From: Ancylobacter sp. Lp-2
GTDB lineage: Bacteria > Pseudomonadota > Alphaproteobacteria > Rhizobiales > Xanthobacteraceae
Direction of reading: 5' to 3'
NCBI RefSeq assembly: GCF_020523795.1
Contig: NZ_JAJALI010000001.1
Span: forward strand, 434,001 to 498,000
DNA length: 64,000 nucleotides
This document shows positions 1 to 61,402 of the stretch, in pieces. Numbering within the stretch: the stretch's first letter is position 1; the number at the start of each line of letters is the position of its first letter. The notes under the pieces are model-generated. The model did not search any database and was not told the origin of the DNA. It saw nothing but the letters and a program-made list of their open reading frames with translations. Position numbers and translations under genes: made by a program.

Positions 1-938
1 AGGCGATCTACATCCAGGGCGAGGACATCCTGCAGTCCGATCCCGACACCAAGCATGTCGCCGCCGGCCTTGCGGCGATGGAGCTGGTGGTGGTGCAGGA
101 CCTGTTCCTGAACGAGACCGCCAACTACGCCCATGTCTTCCTGCCGGGCTGCACCTTCCTCGAGAAGGACGGCACCTTCACCAATGCCGAGCGCCGCATC
201 CAGCTGGTGCGCAAGGTGATGGCGCCGAAGAACGGCTATGGCGACTGGGAAGTGACGCAGATGCTGGCCCGTGCCATTGGCATGGACTGGAACTACACCC
301 ACCCCTCGCAGATCATGGACGAGATCGCCGCGCTCACCCCGACCTTCGCCGGCGTGTCGTTCAAGCGCCTCGACGAGCTCGGTTCGGTGCAGTGGCCCTG
401 CAACGACGCCAATCCCGAAGGTGTGCCGATCATGCACATCGAGACCTTCGCGCGCGGCAAGGGCAAGTTCGTCGTCACCGAATACGTGCCGACCGACGAG
501 CGCTCCGGCGCCCGTTTCCCGCTGCTGCTCACCACCGGCCGTATCCTCAGCCACTACAATGTCGGCGCGCAGACCCGCCGCACCGACAATGTCGCCTGGC
601 ACCCGGAGGACCTGTTGGAGATCCATCCCCACGACGCCGAGCAGCGCGGCGTGCGCGACGGCGACTGGGTGCGCATCGACAGCCGCGCCGGCTCCACCAC
701 GCTGCGCGCGGAGATCACCGACCGCGTGGCGCCGGGCGTCGTCTACACCACCTTCCACCACCCGACGACCCAGGCCAACGTCGTCACCACCGACTTCTCG
801 GACTGGGCGACCAACTGCCCCGAGTTCAAGGTGACGGCGGTGCAGGTCGCGCGCTCCAACGGGCCGTCGCAGTGGCAGGAAGACTATGACGCCTTCGCCC
901 GCCAGAGCCGCCGTATCGCCGTTGAAGCGGCGGAGTGA
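1..938 (+). CDS. fdsA: NAD-dependent formate dehydrogenase alpha subunit, 3' part
   Basis: This is the C-terminal part of the molybdenum/tungsten bis-MGD catalytic subunit of a soluble NAD-linked formate dehydrogenase, which oxidises formate to CO2. The frame is open from base 3 to the stop at 936-938; the start lies left of the window. The visible protein covers the end of the molybdopterin oxidoreductase domain (AFLPGCTFLEKDGTFTN-type segment) and the whole molybdopterin-dinucleotide-binding domain, including LLLTTGRILSHYN and TTFHHPTTQAN, which is typical of FdsA/FdhF-like enzymes. Twelve bases separate it from fdhD and fdsD follows, which is the tail of the fdsGBACD operon order and supports FdsA over a nitrate reductase. 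Confidence 0.93.
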   Translation, partial: AIYIQGEDILQSDPDTKHVAAGLAAMELVVVQDLFLNETANYAHVFLPGCTFLEKDGTFTNAERRIQLVRKVMAPKNGYGDWEVTQMLARAIGMDWNYTHPSQIMDEIAALTPTFAGVSFKRLDELGSVQWPCNDANPEGVPIMHIETFARGKGKFVVTEYVPTDERSGARFPLLLTTGRILSHYNVGAQTRRTDNVAWHPEDLLEIHPHDAEQRGVRDGDWVRIDSRAGSTTLRAEITDRVAPGVVYTTFHHPTTQANVVTTDFSDWATNCPEFKVTAVQVARSNGPSQWQEDYDAFARQSRRIAVEAAE

Positions 939-34869: not shown

Positions 34870-35088
34870 ATGGCCGACAACCTTCCCGCCACGCGTTCCG
34901 ACATCGAGGCCAGCTACGTGCCGGCCCACCCGGAAGAGATCCACGGCGCCTACGACCTCAGGATCGGCAACCTGTTCCGGCTGCAGGGCACCGGACGCGT
35001 CACCCCGGCCGGGCTGATCTGCGGCTGCCTCGGCGCCGCCGCCGTGCTGCTGGCCACGGCGGTGGTGGTGCGGGCGGTGCGGAGGTAA
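34870..35088 (+). CDS. Small tail-anchored membrane protein, unknown function
   Basis: A 72-aa hypothetical protein. The N-terminal 45 residues are soluble (MADNLPATRSDIEASYVPAH, then AYDLRIGNLFRLQGTGRVT) and the C terminus is one membrane helix (GLICGCLGAAAVLLATAVVV) ending in VRAVRR, a positive-inside tail. CGGAGA lies 7 bases before the ATG, and base composition fits the host. It is the last host-like gene before the AT-rich island. I do not recognise the family. Confidence 0.6.
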   Translation: MADNLPATRSDIEASYVPAHPEEIHGAYDLRIGNLFRLQGTGRVTPAGLICGCLGAAAVLLATAVVVRAVRR

Positions 35089-35148
35089 TTGATAGCTTGA
35101 TGCGGTTGGCACCGGACAAATAATGATTCAGCGAAGGTTAGTCAGTTT

Positions 35149-35763
35149 TTATATTGCATGAGATGAGGCAAAATCTAGAGTTTTATCGCTTATTTCATCT
35201 ATGAGCTCAATTGATTTTTCGTGCCAGGCTAGGCAATCGGAAATATAATCTACAGTTATATTTTCTCCATGGGCGATTTGATCTCGCTTTGTCTTTAATG
35301 AGTGGTAAAATAATTTATATTTTACATGATCTAGGTCAATCTGGAGAACCCATTCAGACATGAAACGTAGTCTGCCGTATTTAAAATTTCCTCCATCAAT
35401 AACCTCCTTATGAGAAAGTTCTTTAATACGAGTCGATTTTGATGCTTCGGAGGCATCTTTGCACAACAGATATCTTTTATCTGAATTGTGTTGAACGGAT
35501 TCTTTTCCATAAAAAGCAAACCATGCCATCTGATAGTCGTAATTTTGTCGTGGATTTGATGATAAATAAAGTAAATAATTTTTAGATAGTTCTTTAATTA
35601 ATTGATCGCAATGAGCATATATGATCATCGTCCAGGCACGGCAAAGATATGCCTCTTCAGAGCGGCCAGAATAGTTTTCAGCCAAACTGCGAGCGCTAGA
35701 CAGTTCTAGCTTTCTCCACGCTCTTGACTGATCGAGCGAGCTCTGAAATTCGAGGAGATCCAT
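35149..35763 (-). CDS. HEPN-domain protein, MAE_28990/MAE_18760-like putative RNase
   Basis: A 204-aa AT-rich gene product, mostly helical. The segment KTKRDQIAHGE (Arg160 to His165, an R-x4-H motif) is the signature of HEPN ribonucleases, and the surrounding pattern (MDLLEFQSSLDQSRAWRKLEL, then AYLCRAWTMIIYAHCDQLIKEL) fits the MAE_28990/MAE_18760 HEPN group. It overlaps the preceding frame by one base (TGATG), or four if GTG at 35766 is used. Such HEPN proteins are commonly encoded after a DUF262 protein, as here, and are predicted toxins of defence modules. Target RNA is unknown. Confidence 0.8.
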   Translation of the reverse strand: MDLLEFQSSLDQSRAWRKLELSSARSLAENYSGRSEEAYLCRAWTMIIYAHCDQLIKELSKNYLLYLSSNPRQNYDYQMAWFAFYGKESVQHNSDKRYLLCKDASEASKSTRIKELSHKEVIDGGNFKYGRLRFMSEWVLQIDLDHVKYKLFYHSLKTKRDQIAHGENITVDYISDCLAWHEKSIELIDEISDKTLDFASSHAI

Positions 35764-36089
35764 CACTTGGGCTCGAATAGTTGCTTTCCGAGTTTGACGA
35801 GCTCTGGAATACGACGACTTGCATTCTTGCCACTGCCAGAGGCAGCACGAAAGCGTGCATTCCTACCAATTCCATCTATTATTTTCTTTATTTCCTTGTC
35901 TGTCGGCAAGGATTGTATATTTTGTGCTATGCCCAACGCCACAGTTTCAAAAAATGAAACTGAAAATTTACCAGTACCTGGGCTGGTTTTAAATTTCAAA
36001 GCATTGTCACCCCAGCATCTAAAAATCGTATCAAATGTTTTTTTGAATAAATCTTCAATAGTACTTGTATTTAAAATTATTGTCATCAA
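35763..36089 (-). CDS. C-terminal part of DUF262 protein, separated by a frameshift
   Basis: A 108-aa frame (from NTSTIEDLFKKTFDTIF to KLGKQLFEPK) that looks like the C-terminal domain of the DUF262 protein rather than an independent gene. It lies in the +1 frame relative to the upstream frame and overlaps it by 35 bases. Removing one T from the TTTT run at about 36073-36076 would give a single continuous protein of about 366 residues, the normal size. The ATGATG at 36089 is available as an internal start, so it might be made separately. No strong ribosome-binding site is seen. Confidence 0.65.
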   Translation of the reverse strand: MMTIILNTSTIEDLFKKTFDTIFRCWGDNALKFKTSPGTGKFSVSFFETVALGIAQNIQSLPTDKEIKKIIDGIGRNARFRAASGSGKNASRRIPELVKLGKQLFEPK

Positions 36090-36864
36090 GTATTTCGCGG
36101 AGCGCGCCGGTCAAAAATACGTCGACAGATTTGGCATTTTGGAGGGTAGATATTTTGGGGGAAAGAAAAACAATAAACCTCAAAACAAGTTCGACATCCA
36201 TCCGTACAGATTTGTCGCGATCCGCAAGTCCACATACCTTTGAGAAATTTTCGTATACAGAAATAGATTCAAACCACTTAAGTACTTTTGGATCTTTTCC
36301 TGCAATGATTGCGTTGCGCAACTCTTGACCAGAAATTGAGGTGCCACCAGAATTCAGGCGCTGAAACAGCTCAAATTTGGCATCTGGGCCCGTTTCGCGT
36401 AATAGTATTGTAAGTTGAATTTTTGTTCGCCGAAAATCAAGTTGAATTCGGCGAGTCAGTTGATTCCAAGCTTTTCCTTGGAATTTTTCAATATAAAATA
36501 AATCGTCTGACAGTTCATTGAATGGTTGATAATAAGGATTCGCCTTTGACTCTTCCGAAAGGACTCCCATATAGTCAAATATCGTAGAAACTCGTTGCAT
36601 TCCATCAACTACCTCCCAGTTTCCGTCCTCGTCTTGTGCGACAAAAACAGATGGAAGAGGTAGGCCAATAAGTATTGATTCAATCAATTTTGTCTTTTGA
36701 TCGTCAGTCCATCTAAAATATCTTTGATACTCAGGGCGTAATATTATTTCGCCCTTTTCATACATACCGGCAAGCTCTCCAATTGACATTGGGTAAGAGT
36801 CGGTTTTGACAATTTTCCGAGCACTGTCTAGGGCTGCTTCAAGGATTTCGTCATCGCGCGACAT
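36055..36864 (-). CDS. DUF262 domain protein (ParB/Srx-like), N-terminal part
   Basis: A 269-aa product. DUF262 block: MSIGELAGMYEKGEI, RPEYQR (43-48) FRWTDDQKTKLIESILIGLPLP and the ParB-like signature DGMQR (87-91). DUF262 proteins (GmrS/SspE/DndB-related ParB-like NTPase fold) recur in phage-defence modules. The frame ends prematurely in KYKYY and the expected C-terminal domain continues in the next frame. Base composition is far more AT-rich than all flanking genes, indicating horizontal acquisition. A putative -10 TAAAAT (36877-36882, minus strand) lies only 12 bases before the ATG. Confidence 0.8.
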   Translation of the reverse strand: MSRDDEILEAALDSARKIVKTDSYPMSIGELAGMYEKGEIILRPEYQRYFRWTDDQKTKLIESILIGLPLPSVFVAQDEDGNWEVVDGMQRVSTIFDYMGVLSEESKANPYYQPFNELSDDLFYIEKFQGKAWNQLTRRIQLDFRRTKIQLTILLRETGPDAKFELFQRLNSGGTSISGQELRNAIIAGKDPKVLKWFESISVYENFSKVCGLADRDKSVRMDVELVLRFIVFLSPKISTLQNAKSVDVFLTGALREILDDNNFKYKYY

Positions 36865-37297
36865 TGTTGACCTGATATTTTAGCTAAGGAATCCCATTCT
36901 TTAGACTCGCACCGGCAGGTGAGGTGCGTCAATGGGGATGGGCAGTTAACATTGCGTTGCATCGCTTTGACGGCTCTCTAGCATCCCCCAACACCCCCCT
37001 CGCCTTTCTCCCCCTCTTGCACTATATAGCCCCCGCCGGACGGCTCCGCCCCGGACCTCCCCGCGCCCACGCGCGTGAGTGAGGCCCGTGCGAGGCTACC
37101 GGCCATGGCCGTGCGGTTCCGGGTTCTGCCCGCGGGCCGGCGCGGCCTTTAGGCGTATCTACGCCCACTCCGCCACGGCCAGAGCGCCGGGCCCCCGGCT
37201 CACCCCGGAGGCCGCATCGGGATCGCCAGACCCGGTGCCCGTGACGGGAAGGGCGCCCAAAACCCCGTCCGGCGCAATCCCCTGGCTAGGAGCTTCT
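36865..37297. other. Spacer between DUF262 gene and rpsA; rpsA leader
   Basis: There is no supported gene. The left ~60 bases are AT-rich and belong to the island, including its promoter. From about 36930 the composition returns to host type. A TATATA box near 37023-37028, in a pyrimidine-rich context, is a candidate -10 for rpsA, which would give a long (~260-nt) leader. A reading frame continuing rpsA upstream to 37079 is judged to be leader, because S1 begins MSATQTALASRDDFAAML. Confidence 0.5.
36884..36904 (-). promoter_or_regulatory. Near-perfect palindrome over the DUF262 promoter
   Basis: CTAAGGAAT (36884-36892), spacer CCC, ATTCTTTAG (36896-36904): nine-base arms with one mismatch. 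It starts just upstream of the putative -10 (36877-36882) and covers the spacer and -35 region, an ideal repressor site. The DUF262 (ParB-like) protein itself, or an unlinked factor, could bind here. Confidence 0.4.
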
Positions 37298-39429: not shown

Positions 39430-40428
39430 TCACCTTCGCGACGGCAGCGTCATCGCCACCACGCCGGCCAGCACGCCGGCGAGGCCGAGCCAGGCGGTCG
39501 GCGCCAGGCTCTCGCCGAGGAAGACCATGCCGATGGCGACGCCGATCGGCACCCGCAGATAGGCCTGCGCGGTGGCGCCGACCGAGCCGAGCGTCTGCAT
39601 CAATCGGAAGAACAGCACCAGTGCCAGCGCGGTGGAGAACAGGCTGAGCGCCAGCAGCGCCGCCAGCGAGGCGGCCGAGGGCGTGAGCGTCCACGGCCGG
39701 TCGACGACGAGGCTTGCCGGCACCAGCAGCGCCGCGCCGCAGATGAGCGAACCGGCAGCCGGCAGCATCGGGTCGAGCCCCTTGAAGCGGGCGCCGAAGA
39801 TGGCGGCGCCGGCATAGCACAGCGTCGCCGCCAGCACCGCCAGCTGCGGCAGCAGCGCATCGCCGAGGCCGTGCAGCGCGCCGACGCCGACGATGAGGCA
39901 GACGCCGACCAGCCCGCTCGCCACCCCGAACAGCTTGCGCGCCGACACCGCCTCGTGGCGCACCAGCAGCGCGGTGAGCAGGAAGGCGAAGATCGGGGTC
40001 ATCGAATTGAGGATCGCCGCCAGCCCCGCCTCGATGTGGGTTTCCGCCCAGGCGATGAGGGTGAAGGGCAGCGCACTGTTGAGGCAGGCCTGGACGAGGA
40101 AGCCGCGCCAGAGCGCCGGATCGCGCGGCAGGGGGATGCCTCGGATCCGCAGCACTGCCAGCAGCACGCTGCCGGCGATGAGGGTGCGCGCGGCGATGAA
40201 GGTGACCGGCGGAATGGTGTCGACGCCGATCTTGATGAAGCTGTACGAGGCCCCCCACAGGGTGGCGAGAAGCAGCAGCAGAGCGAGTTCGCCGGCGAGC
40301 GGGCGCGCCGCTGGGTGCGGTGTCGGGCGGGTGCCGGCAGCGCCGGAGGAGGTCGTCCCGGTGGGGGCGGTCCCGGTAGGTGAAACCTCGGCGGACATGA
40401 TCTCGGCAGTCCTCGTCTCGGCAGGCAT
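39430..40428 (-). CDS. EamA/DMT-superfamily transporter
   Basis: A ~332-aa drug/metabolite transporter with ten hydrophobic segments in two EamA repeats (LALLLLLATLWGASYSFIKIGVDTIPPVTF begins repeat one; AVLAATLCYAGAAIFGARF begins repeat two). It ends with GMVFLGESLAPTAWLGLAGVLAGVVAMTL, the usual EamA tail. The N-terminal ~40 residues are soluble and Thr/Ala/Pro-rich. The start is uncertain between ATG 40428 and ATG 40398, neither with an ideal ribosome-binding site. The substrate is unknown. Upstream lie the large tandem repeats. Confidence 0.88.
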   Translation of the reverse strand: MPAETRTAEIMSAEVSPTGTAPTGTTSSGAAGTRPTPHPAARPLAGELALLLLLATLWGASYSFIKIGVDTIPPVTFIAARTLIAGSVLLAVLRIRGIPLPRDPALWRGFLVQACLNSALPFTLIAWAETHIEAGLAAILNSMTPIFAFLLTALLVRHEAVSARKLFGVASGLVGVCLIVGVGALHGLGDALLPQLAVLAATLCYAGAAIFGARFKGLDPMLPAAGSLICGAALLVPASLVVDRPWTLTPSAASLAALLALSLFSTALALVLFFRLMQTLGSVGATAQAYLRVPIGVAIGMVFLGESLAPTAWLGLAGVLAGVVAMTLPSRR

Positions 40429-40518
40429 GGCGGTGGCGTCCCTGAAGCGGCGGGCGAAGGCTGGTCCATCGGCGCGCGAGCCGCGACGCGTCGGCGAGCG
40501 CCATGGCCGTTCTAAGGC

Positions 40519-41212
40519 ACGGCGCCGGCCTGACGCTTCGGCCACGGCCGAAAGGTTGGCGACTGACACGGTGCCGGGCCGGCTGGTAGATTTGCCGTCC
40601 CGGCCATTGGCGGGCGGGTGCCGCCAGAAGAGTCCACCGAGGGAACCCGTGAGGGGAACCTGCCAAGGAGCCGGCCAAGAGGGTACGGCGCCGGCCTGAC
40701 GCTTCGGCTACGGCCGAAAGGTCGGCGGCTGACACGGTGGCGAACTGGCTGGTAGATTTGCCGTCCCGGCCATTGGCGGGCGGGTGCCGGCGCGGGCGCC
40801 GCCAGAAGAGACCACCGAGGGAACCCGCGAAGGGAACCTGCCAAGGAGCCGGCCAAGAGGGCACGGCGCCGGCCTGACGCTTCGGCTACGGCCGAAAGGT
40901 CGGCGGCTGACACGGTGGCGGACTGGCTGGTAGATTTGCCGTCCCGGCTATTGGCGGGCGGGTGCCGCCAGAAGAGTCCACCGAGGGAACCCGTGAGGGG
41001 AACCTGCCAAAGGAACCCGCCAAGAGGGCACGGCACCGGCCTGACGCTTCGGCTACGGCCGAAAGGTCGGCGGCTGACACGGTGGCGGGCCGGCTGGTAG
41101 ATTTGCCGTCCCGGCCATCGGCGGGCGGGTGCCGGGCGGCCGCCGCCAGAAGAGACCACCGAGGGAACCCGCGAAGGGAGCCCGCCAGACGAACCCGCCG
41201 GAGGAGCCCGTC
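40519..41212. repeat. Four tandem imperfect repeats of 166-183 bp
   Basis: The block begins four times with AC-GGC[GA]CCGGCCTGACG: at 40519, 40685, 40863 and 41030 (unit lengths 166, 178, 167 and about 183). Each unit holds TTCGGC-TACG-GCCGAA (hairpin), GACACGGTG, CTGGTAGATTTGCCGTCCCGG, GGCGGGCGGGTGCC and AAGAG[TA]CCACCGAGGGAACCCG. Units 1 and 3 share AAGAGTCCACC and CCGTGAGGGG, while units 2 and 4 share a ~12-base insert after GGTGCCGG, AAGAGACCACC and CGCGAAGGGA. A ~344-bp dimer therefore appears duplicated. Unit lengths are not multiples of three, so the array is non-coding. It fills the spacer between the divergent DMT and ArsR genes. Confidence 0.95.
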
Positions 41213-41944
41213 ATGTCCGATGCCGTCTCGGGAAGCGACCTTGCCCGCCTTGCCGCGCTGATCGGCGACCCGGCGCGGGCCAACATGCTGCTGGCGCTGA
41301 TGGGCGGCCGGGCGCTGACTGCCGGCGAACTCGCCGCGCAGGCCGGCGTCGCTGCCCCGACCGCCAGTGGCCACCTCGCCCGCCTCGCCGAGGGCAGGCT
41401 GGTCGCCGTCGAGCGGCAGGGCCGGCACCGCTATTACCGGCTGGCCGGGCCGGAGGTCGCCGAGCTGGTGCACCAGTTGATGGGCGCCGCCGCGCTGGGG
41501 CCGCGCCGCTACCGCCCGCCCGGGCCGCGCGACGCGGCGCTCCGGCTGGCGCGCTCGTGCTACGACCATCTCGCCGGCCGGCTGGCGCTGGCGCTCGTCG
41601 ATGCGCTGGTGGCGCAGGACCGGCTTGCCATGAGCGCCGGAAACTTCACGCTTACCGGGACCGGACGGGCTTTTTTCGAGACTCTGGGCGTCGCTCTCGA
41701 CGCGGCGCCGGGCACGAGACGGCCGCTGTGCCGCGCCTGCCTCGACTGGAGCGAGCGTCGGCCGCATCTCGCCGGCCGACTGGGCACGGCGCTGCACCAC
41801 CGCCTGATCGCGCAGCGATGGCTGGAGCCGGTGCCGGGCAGCCGCGCGCTCAGGATCACCCACGTCGGCGAGACCGGTCTCGTCGCGGCATTCGGCCTGC
41901 CGCGTGACTGGCGCTGCGAGGAGGCGCGCCCTGACGCCGCCTGA
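41213..41944 (+). CDS. ArsR-family winged-helix regulator
   Basis: A 243-aa regulator: N-terminal ArsR/SmtB winged HTH (LARLAALIGDPARANMLLALMGGRALTAGELAAQAGVAAPTASGHLARLAEGRLVAVERQGRHRYYRL), then about 150 residues with Cys in RRPLCRACLDWSERRPHL. This longer form is common in regulators next to DMT transporters. The ATG at 41213 follows GGAGGAGCCC. The tandem repeats lie immediately upstream, their last unit running into the ribosome-binding site. It likely represses the divergent transporter. Confidence 0.9.
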   Translation: MSDAVSGSDLARLAALIGDPARANMLLALMGGRALTAGELAAQAGVAAPTASGHLARLAEGRLVAVERQGRHRYYRLAGPEVAELVHQLMGAAALGPRRYRPPGPRDAALRLARSCYDHLAGRLALALVDALVAQDRLAMSAGNFTLTGTGRAFFETLGVALDAAPGTRRPLCRACLDWSERRPHLAGRLGTALHHRLIAQRWLEPVPGSRALRITHVGETGLVAAFGLPRDWRCEEARPDAA

Positions 41945-61099: not shown

Positions 61100-61402
61100 C
61101 AGGTACTCCTTGGCTTGCGGATATCGGGCTTGCGGATGTCGGGCTTGCGGATGTCGCCGATCATCGACGGGCGCGATGAAGATAGGGCGACGGTGCCGGC
61201 CGGCAACGCCGTCCAGCGCTGTCGCGCGTGCGAAGCGGCAAGCCGGGCCGTGTTGTGAACAGGGTTGGCCCGGCGCGGCACTGCCAGTGCGGGAGGCAGC
61301 CATACCGCCGGCGGCCTTGTGCCGGGGCGGCCGGCATGGCACTTGCTGGCTCAACTTCGTCGCTCTTCCCATTCCGATCCGCCCGCCGAGGTCGCCCTGC
61401 CC
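61100..61402. other. Spacer between divergent ohr and HAD-IIA genes
   Basis: No gene is supported. It contains a three-copy 15-bp tandem repeat described separately. Promoters of both divergent genes must lie here, but no clear -35/-10 pair is visible. Confidence 0.5.
61113..61157. repeat. Three tandem 15-bp repeats upstream of ohr
   Basis: GCTTGCGGATATCGG, GCTTGCGGATGTCGG, GCTTGCGGATGTCGC at 61113-61127, 61128-61142 and 61143-61157. It starts 14 bases upstream of the ohr ATG, thus within its leader or promoter. Confidence 0.9.

Follow-up and report, generated by a model that had tools for sequence, protein, structure and literature searches.

A predicted arsR/DMT control region repeated four times in tandem in Ancylobacter sp. 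Lp-2

What is the function of a four-fold tandem repeat lying between a transporter gene and a divergently oriented arsR-type regulator gene? The question is raised by a 64,000-nucleotide stretch (contig C11, 434001–498000) of the 5.59-Mb genome of Ancylobacter sp. Lp-2 (hereafter the window, i.e., the whole stretch analyzed). Overall, we read the array as a tandem amplification, to four copies, of the control region that arsR shares with the DMT gene. Each unit would carry an operator, an arsR-directed promoter and a leader in which purine-rich tracts resemble a Shine-Dalgarno sequence, and we assign this reading a probability of about 80%. The genes and units are as follows:

39430–40428, minus strand: EamA/DMT transporter gene, with its start at 40428 or 40398
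40515–40680, plus strand: unit 1, 166 bp, the outermost unit, adjoining the DMT gene
40681–40858, plus strand: unit 2, 178 bp, carrying a 12-bp insert
40859–41025, plus strand: unit 3, 167 bp
41026–41212, plus strand: unit 4, 187 bp, reaching the arsR start codon
41213–41944, plus strand: arsR, encoding a 243-aa ArsR/SmtB-type regulator (HTH_20, HTH_5; NF033788)

We first consider the anatomy of the array. Tandem Repeats Finder called it at 40516–41187, either with a period of 344 × 2.0 copies (score 1202) or with a period of 178 × 3.3 copies (score 926). Together with the alignment of the units, whose borders were set 22 bases ahead of each palindrome, this bears out the four-unit tandem array suggested earlier from the letters of the DNA, i.e., four head-to-tail units of 166, 178, 167 and 187 bp covering 40515–41212. 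Pairwise unit identity ranged from 91.4 to 95.2%, gap columns excluded. That sequence-only reading had also described two alternating subtypes (units 1/3 and 2/4) and a single duplication of a 344-bp dimer. The alternation is real in the 3′ half of the unit, where it comprises the 12-bp indel, GTCC/GACC and GTGAGG/GCGAAG, but it is confined to that half: the 5′ half instead pairs unit 2 with unit 3 and leaves unit 1 as the most divergent, and over whole units the closest pair is 2/3 (95.2%), followed by 1/3 (94.0%) and 2/4 (93.6%). Because both the 5′ half and the whole units group 2 with 3, one clean dimer duplication is too simple a history. The proposal that the units are non-coding stands, as none of their spacings (166, 178 and 167 bp) is a multiple of three; a coding repeat was discarded on the same grounds, the overlapping open reading frames being expected for DNA of ~70% G+C.

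The protein encoded beyond unit 4 passes the test for an ArsR-family winged helix-turn-helix at curated cut-offs, with scores of 38.3 bits for PF12840 (cut-off 27), 28.6 for PF01022 (22) and 61.2 for NF033788 (55), although MarR_2 (PF12802) also scores above its cut-off (30.8 vs 27). In an alignment of 22 ArsR sequences (one homologue, from locus L037, was left out here and kept in the locus counts), C116 and C176 are invariant and C173 nearly so. The solved ArsR-family structures matched have chains of 98–151 aa, whereas the protein here has 243 aa and a conserved C-terminal CRxCLDWSERR. Repressors of this family commonly repress their own gene and a neighboring efflux gene.

Each unit contains a palindrome, the stem TTCGGCYACGGCCGAA of the earlier description, which ends 10 bp ahead of the −35 hexamer and fits the broader pattern TTCG-N8-CGAA:

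40537–40552, unstranded: predicted operator O1, TTCGGCCACGGCCGAA, a putative ArsR site whose palindrome is conserved upstream of homologues
40703–40718, unstranded: predicted operator O2, TTCGGCTACGGCCGAA, palindrome likewise conserved
40881–40896, unstranded: predicted operator O3, TTCGGCTACGGCCGAA, palindrome likewise conserved
41048–41063, unstranded: predicted operator O4, TTCGGCTACGGCCGAA, palindrome likewise conserved

We evaluated the conservation of this palindrome across 102 ArsR homologue loci. Of these, 22 were drawn from 61 related genomes, and the other 80 are the best among 584 confirmed in a species-representative collection. Loci L018–L039 were taken as the 22 homologues; L040–L046, which are weak matches to other ArsR proteins, were left out, as were two further good matches in one genome (G033), for which no loci were available. 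TTCG-N8-CGAA occurred within 250 nt upstream in 86 of the 102 loci, of which 83 have one site and 3 have two, whereas the other 16 have none. This amounts to 89 sites in 27.4 kb of upstream DNA vs 10 in the remaining 493 kb of the same loci. The narrower form found in the window, TTCGG-N6-CCGAA, was present in 43 loci. In 33 loci a DMT homologue is encoded upstream in the opposite orientation, and 30 of these have the palindrome. From this conservation and from its position, TTCG-N8-CGAA is very likely the operator of the repressor. A few of the counted sites are weaker: the single sites in L082 and L115, near −195, lie far upstream, are doubtful and are probably not operators, and the doubling in L053, one of the three loci with two sites, looks like chance. 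In the other two double loci, L069 and L081 (both Litoreibacter), the arsR homologue is preceded by a pair of similar operators spaced 54 bp apart, so that operator doubling occurs elsewhere too. A second group of 29 loci (e.g., L035, L036, L038, L074, L092 and L113) has a palindrome starting 18 nt before the start codon, where it probably overlaps the −10; 25 of these lack a detected divergent DMT gene. There are, in other words, two operator architectures within one regulator family. For this ArsR subfamily, spread over many Alphaproteobacteria and some other bacteria, the 102 loci provide a predicted operator, TTCG-N8-CGAA, often TTCGG-N6-CCGAA.

Next, we scanned 40400–41300 for promoters and obtained exactly four sigma-70-like sites, each of the form CTGACA-18-TAGATT. 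Every unit has one of them, reading toward arsR and with a TG preceding the −10; shuffled versions gave 0.0 (sd 0.1):

40563–40592, plus strand: predicted promoter P1, CTGACA-18-TAGATT with TG before the −10, from the scan, its layout conserved in relatives
40729–40758, plus strand: predicted promoter P2, from the scan
40907–40936, plus strand: predicted promoter P3, from the scan
41074–41103, plus strand: predicted promoter P4, from the scan

Each sits 10 bp behind its operator. The conserved box GGTAGATTTGCCGTCCCGG, reported earlier without a role, can now be placed: it corresponds to the extended −10 end of the promoter plus the presumed transcription start. For the layout comparison, L064 and L067 were removed because they duplicate L034 and L023. 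Of the 84 loci with a palindrome that remained from the 86, 25 non-identical ones combine an operator at least 45 nt upstream with an upstream DMT homologue in divergent orientation. In 23 of these 25 (all except L048 and L076), TGA[CT]-18..20-TANNNT followed the operator at a constant distance (500 shuffles gave a mean of 0.004 and at most 1), with a promoter spacer of 17 in 20 loci and 18 in 3; the window has 18, whereas 20 of its 25 relatives have 17. Where an operator stood upstream but a divergent DMT gene was not detected, 6 of 25 loci showed the same fixed layout; of the 34 loci with an operator <45 nt from the start of the match, none did. This promoter layout belongs to the divergent-DMT group and is not general in the family. 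With the palindrome upstream of 86/102 homologues and the promoter layout in 23/25 relatives, the earlier suggestion of an amplified operator/leader is well supported.

The transporter side is arranged differently. A single hexamer resembling a −10 was found there:

40509–40514, minus strand: DMT-directed −10-like TAGAAC, 22 nt from O1

TAGAAC occurs at O1 only; beside O2, O3 and O4, TCTTGG takes its place. A −10-like TANN[AC]N on the other strand, 21–23 nt from the operator, was present in 17 of the 25 relatives, vs a mean of 1.2 and at most 4 in shuffled sequences. Since the DMT −10 is absent beside O2–O4, the repeated block consists of operator, arsR promoter and leader without the DMT −10, which predicts four promoters for arsR vs one for the DMT gene. 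The locus displays two characters of an autoregulated ArsR/DMT divergent promoter, namely a conserved palindrome between the genes and, in all four units, a predicted arsR promoter at a fixed distance from it. It resembles the autorepressing ArsR/SmtB divergent control regions, in which, as in the relatives, the regulator and transporter genes diverge and a palindrome separates their promoters, but it differs from them in having four promoter–operator copies vs one in most relatives, and in that arsR-directed promoters outnumber DMT-directed ones. Tandem promoters in series likewise provide several promoters for a single gene; here, however, promoter, operator and leader were duplicated together, head to tail.

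A further difference from the relatives concerns the distance to the arsR start codon, which in the window is occupied by a leader:

41104–41212, plus strand: leader, 109 nt from the −10 of P4 to the start codon, with GGAGGAG at 41200–41206 before the ATG

GGAGGAG stands 6 nt ahead of the arsR ATG. We favor this ATG at 41213 over an in-frame GTG at 41129 because the N-terminus that it gives, MSDAVSG, aligns with MSAIVSG and MSSIVSG of the relatives. In the 25 divergent-DMT relatives the gap from operator to ATG is 45 nt in 17 and 46 nt in 5, and the start codon lies 6–7 nt behind the −10; in L022 and L048 the ATG picked as start overlaps the −10 and is read as a wrong start. With a start codon so close to the −10, the arsR mRNA of the relatives with 45–46-nt gaps is probably leaderless, and the 109-nt leader replaces this near-leaderless arrangement. 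Within the leader, purine-rich, Shine-Dalgarno-like tracts form a weak 13-nt repeat at 41181–41210 (Tandem Repeats Finder, 2.3 copies, score 39).

The gain of 109 nt of leader, against almost none in relatives with a gap of 45 nt (17/25) or 46 nt (5/25), could point to an action at the RNA level, i.e., a structured leader, an attenuator or a small-RNA target. However, the leader folds no better than shuffled sequences (z +1.22; its fold was equalled or bettered by 178 of 200 shuffles), an Rfam search gave no match at the gathering score, and the sole terminator-like site in 40400–41300 lies on the other strand and occurs at the shuffle rate (1 vs 0.7). Moreover, each stem lies upstream of its own unit's promoter, although transcripts from P1–P3 would span the later stems. 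We regard this reading as very improbable, and the small-RNA sites proposed in the sequence-only reading find no support in the fold or in Rfam.

We then evaluated whether the unit is found elsewhere. An intergenic unit carrying a palindrome may suggest a mobile or dispersed intergenic repeat, and many copies scattered through the genome had been named as the finding that would count against a local array. When the genome of Lp-2 was searched with unit 1 (E ≤ 0.001; 40 of 49 first-look candidates scored), no place beyond the four units was found, i.e., there were four places, all within the array; a REP-like or otherwise dispersed intergenic repeat was rejected on this count. The array had no match among 72,556 plasmid records, and a search with unit-length DNA outside the own genome gave short partial matches only, with hits in 9 further genomes in a set of 61 and in 6 further genomes in a set of 30. 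Two of these matches, G020:C1:3832684 and G026:C2:735526, correspond to the operator in front of the arsR orthologue; the remaining short matches in genomes of the genus are probably mostly chance in G+C-rich DNA. The probability left to a mobile repeat is close to negligible. A candidate second operator elsewhere in the genome was also dismissed: TTCGGCNNNNGCCGAA matches one further place, on contig C34 inside a 112-aa open reading frame, and with 5 genome matches in all vs 4 for the reversed-pattern control this site was rejected.

To estimate how unusual the arrangement is, we searched for two strict TTCGG-N6-CCGAA sites 151–181 bp apart, start to start, a pattern that other operator variants or spacings would escape. 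One genome among 391 of the family and one among 397 of the order had such pairs, and each time it was that of Lp-2, with three pairs; the two draws, with one genome per species, overlap and comprise 769 distinct genomes, and reversed-pattern controls gave zero. Across the four units, varying columns numbered 1/16 in the operator, 0/6 in the −35 and 0/9 in the extended −10, vs 4/18 in the spacer, 3/22 ahead of the operator and 14/73 in the later leader (counts given without a statistical test).

These patterns bear on a neutral reading, namely that a tandem duplication of the intergenic region was kept by chance and that regulation proceeds as it would from one unit. The array is restricted to the own genome among those searched, leader columns do vary (14/73), unit 4 by itself supplies all that arsR needs, and common origin could explain the low variation of the promoters. 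Conversely, a unit divergence of 5–9% indicates an array that has persisted, and all four units have identical promoter hexamers, yet both observations are compatible with neutrality too. We consider neutral duplication a possible reading, if not the probable one. It shares its anatomy with the amplified control region favored here and differs from it in effect alone, so the odds of the two are not exclusive.

If the amplified region does have an effect, the following scheme may be proposed. ArsR would bind the palindrome, repress its own gene and the DMT gene, and be released by a ligand. As the palindrome lies at or beside the −35 region on either side, ArsR bound there would block both promoters. 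The four copies would add three operators and three arsR promoters. Upon derepression, more repressor would be made, and the transporter would be held somewhat tighter or shut off faster, while repressor bound at the downstream units would limit read-through from P1–P3. Recombination that gains or loses units could shift this setting.

The main competing effect is a sink for the repressor, in which the extra operators titrate ArsR and thereby raise DMT and arsR expression. Four operators do stand at a single locus, and in a synthetic Escherichia coli system decoy sites raise the expression of an autorepressed gene and its targets (PMC7505660). Such decoy-site (DNA sponge) arrays, or negative single-input modules, share with the present locus several repressor sites per cell and an autoregulated repressor, but differ in that here each extra site is part of the repressor gene's own promoter. 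The sites of a decoy array do not drive the repressor gene, whereas a predicted arsR consensus promoter stands behind every operator here, including each added one. Three extra sites per chromosome would, in addition, hold only three more repressor molecules.

The balance between these effects was explored with a toy steady-state model run over nine parameter sets. Pure decoys changed DMT activity 1.01–2.09 fold, the highest values arising at low repressor number and tight binding. Four promoter–operators with free read-through lowered it to 0.51–0.76 fold, while a complete roadblock by downstream-bound repressor gave 0.85–1.72 fold, in part on the side of a sink. The sign of the effect hence depends on read-through, as the free and blocked cases differ, and the predicted direction reverses under tight binding when read-through is fully blocked by bound repressor. 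Raised repressor dosage is the effect we favor, on general knowledge, because three extra sites per chromosome would sequester little of the repressor and a DNA-bound repressor rarely stops read-through altogether. Titration of ArsR, as put forward in the sequence-only reading, is doubtful and probably not the main effect, with an arsR-directed promoter backing each extra operator and opposing effects in the toy model; overall, we judge the sink unlikely.

More speculatively, the array could act as a promoter–operator copy-number dial: unit number would vary between strains by recombination, setting the repressor dosage and the number of roadblocks before arsR while the DMT promoter stays single. 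This would allow a heritable and reversible tuning of feedback, and would have come with or after the switch from a near-leaderless to a Shine-Dalgarno-led arsR. We offer this as a long shot. Within the amplified control region, the operator and promoter of a presumably autorepressed gene have been multiplied and the promoter of its target has not, which makes the locus a natural experiment on how a feedback loop is wired; the number of decoys and the dosage of promoters would be expected to act against each other, yet rise together here. Titles and abstracts of the open-licence PMC literature, queried without the motif letters, yielded nothing on this ArsR/DMT pair or its operator and no natural tandem array of autorepressor promoter–operators.

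Two further observations were made elsewhere in the window. A low-G+C island at 35000–37000 (38–45% vs about 64–76% in neighboring stretches) looks horizontally acquired and is possibly partial; it holds a restriction-type gene with GmrSD_N (PF03235; 36055–36864, minus strand), adjoining a gene with six S1 domains, probably that of ribosomal protein S1. At 61112–61156, a 15-bp unit is present in three copies with 96% matches, and since 15 bp is a multiple of three, this repeat may be coding.
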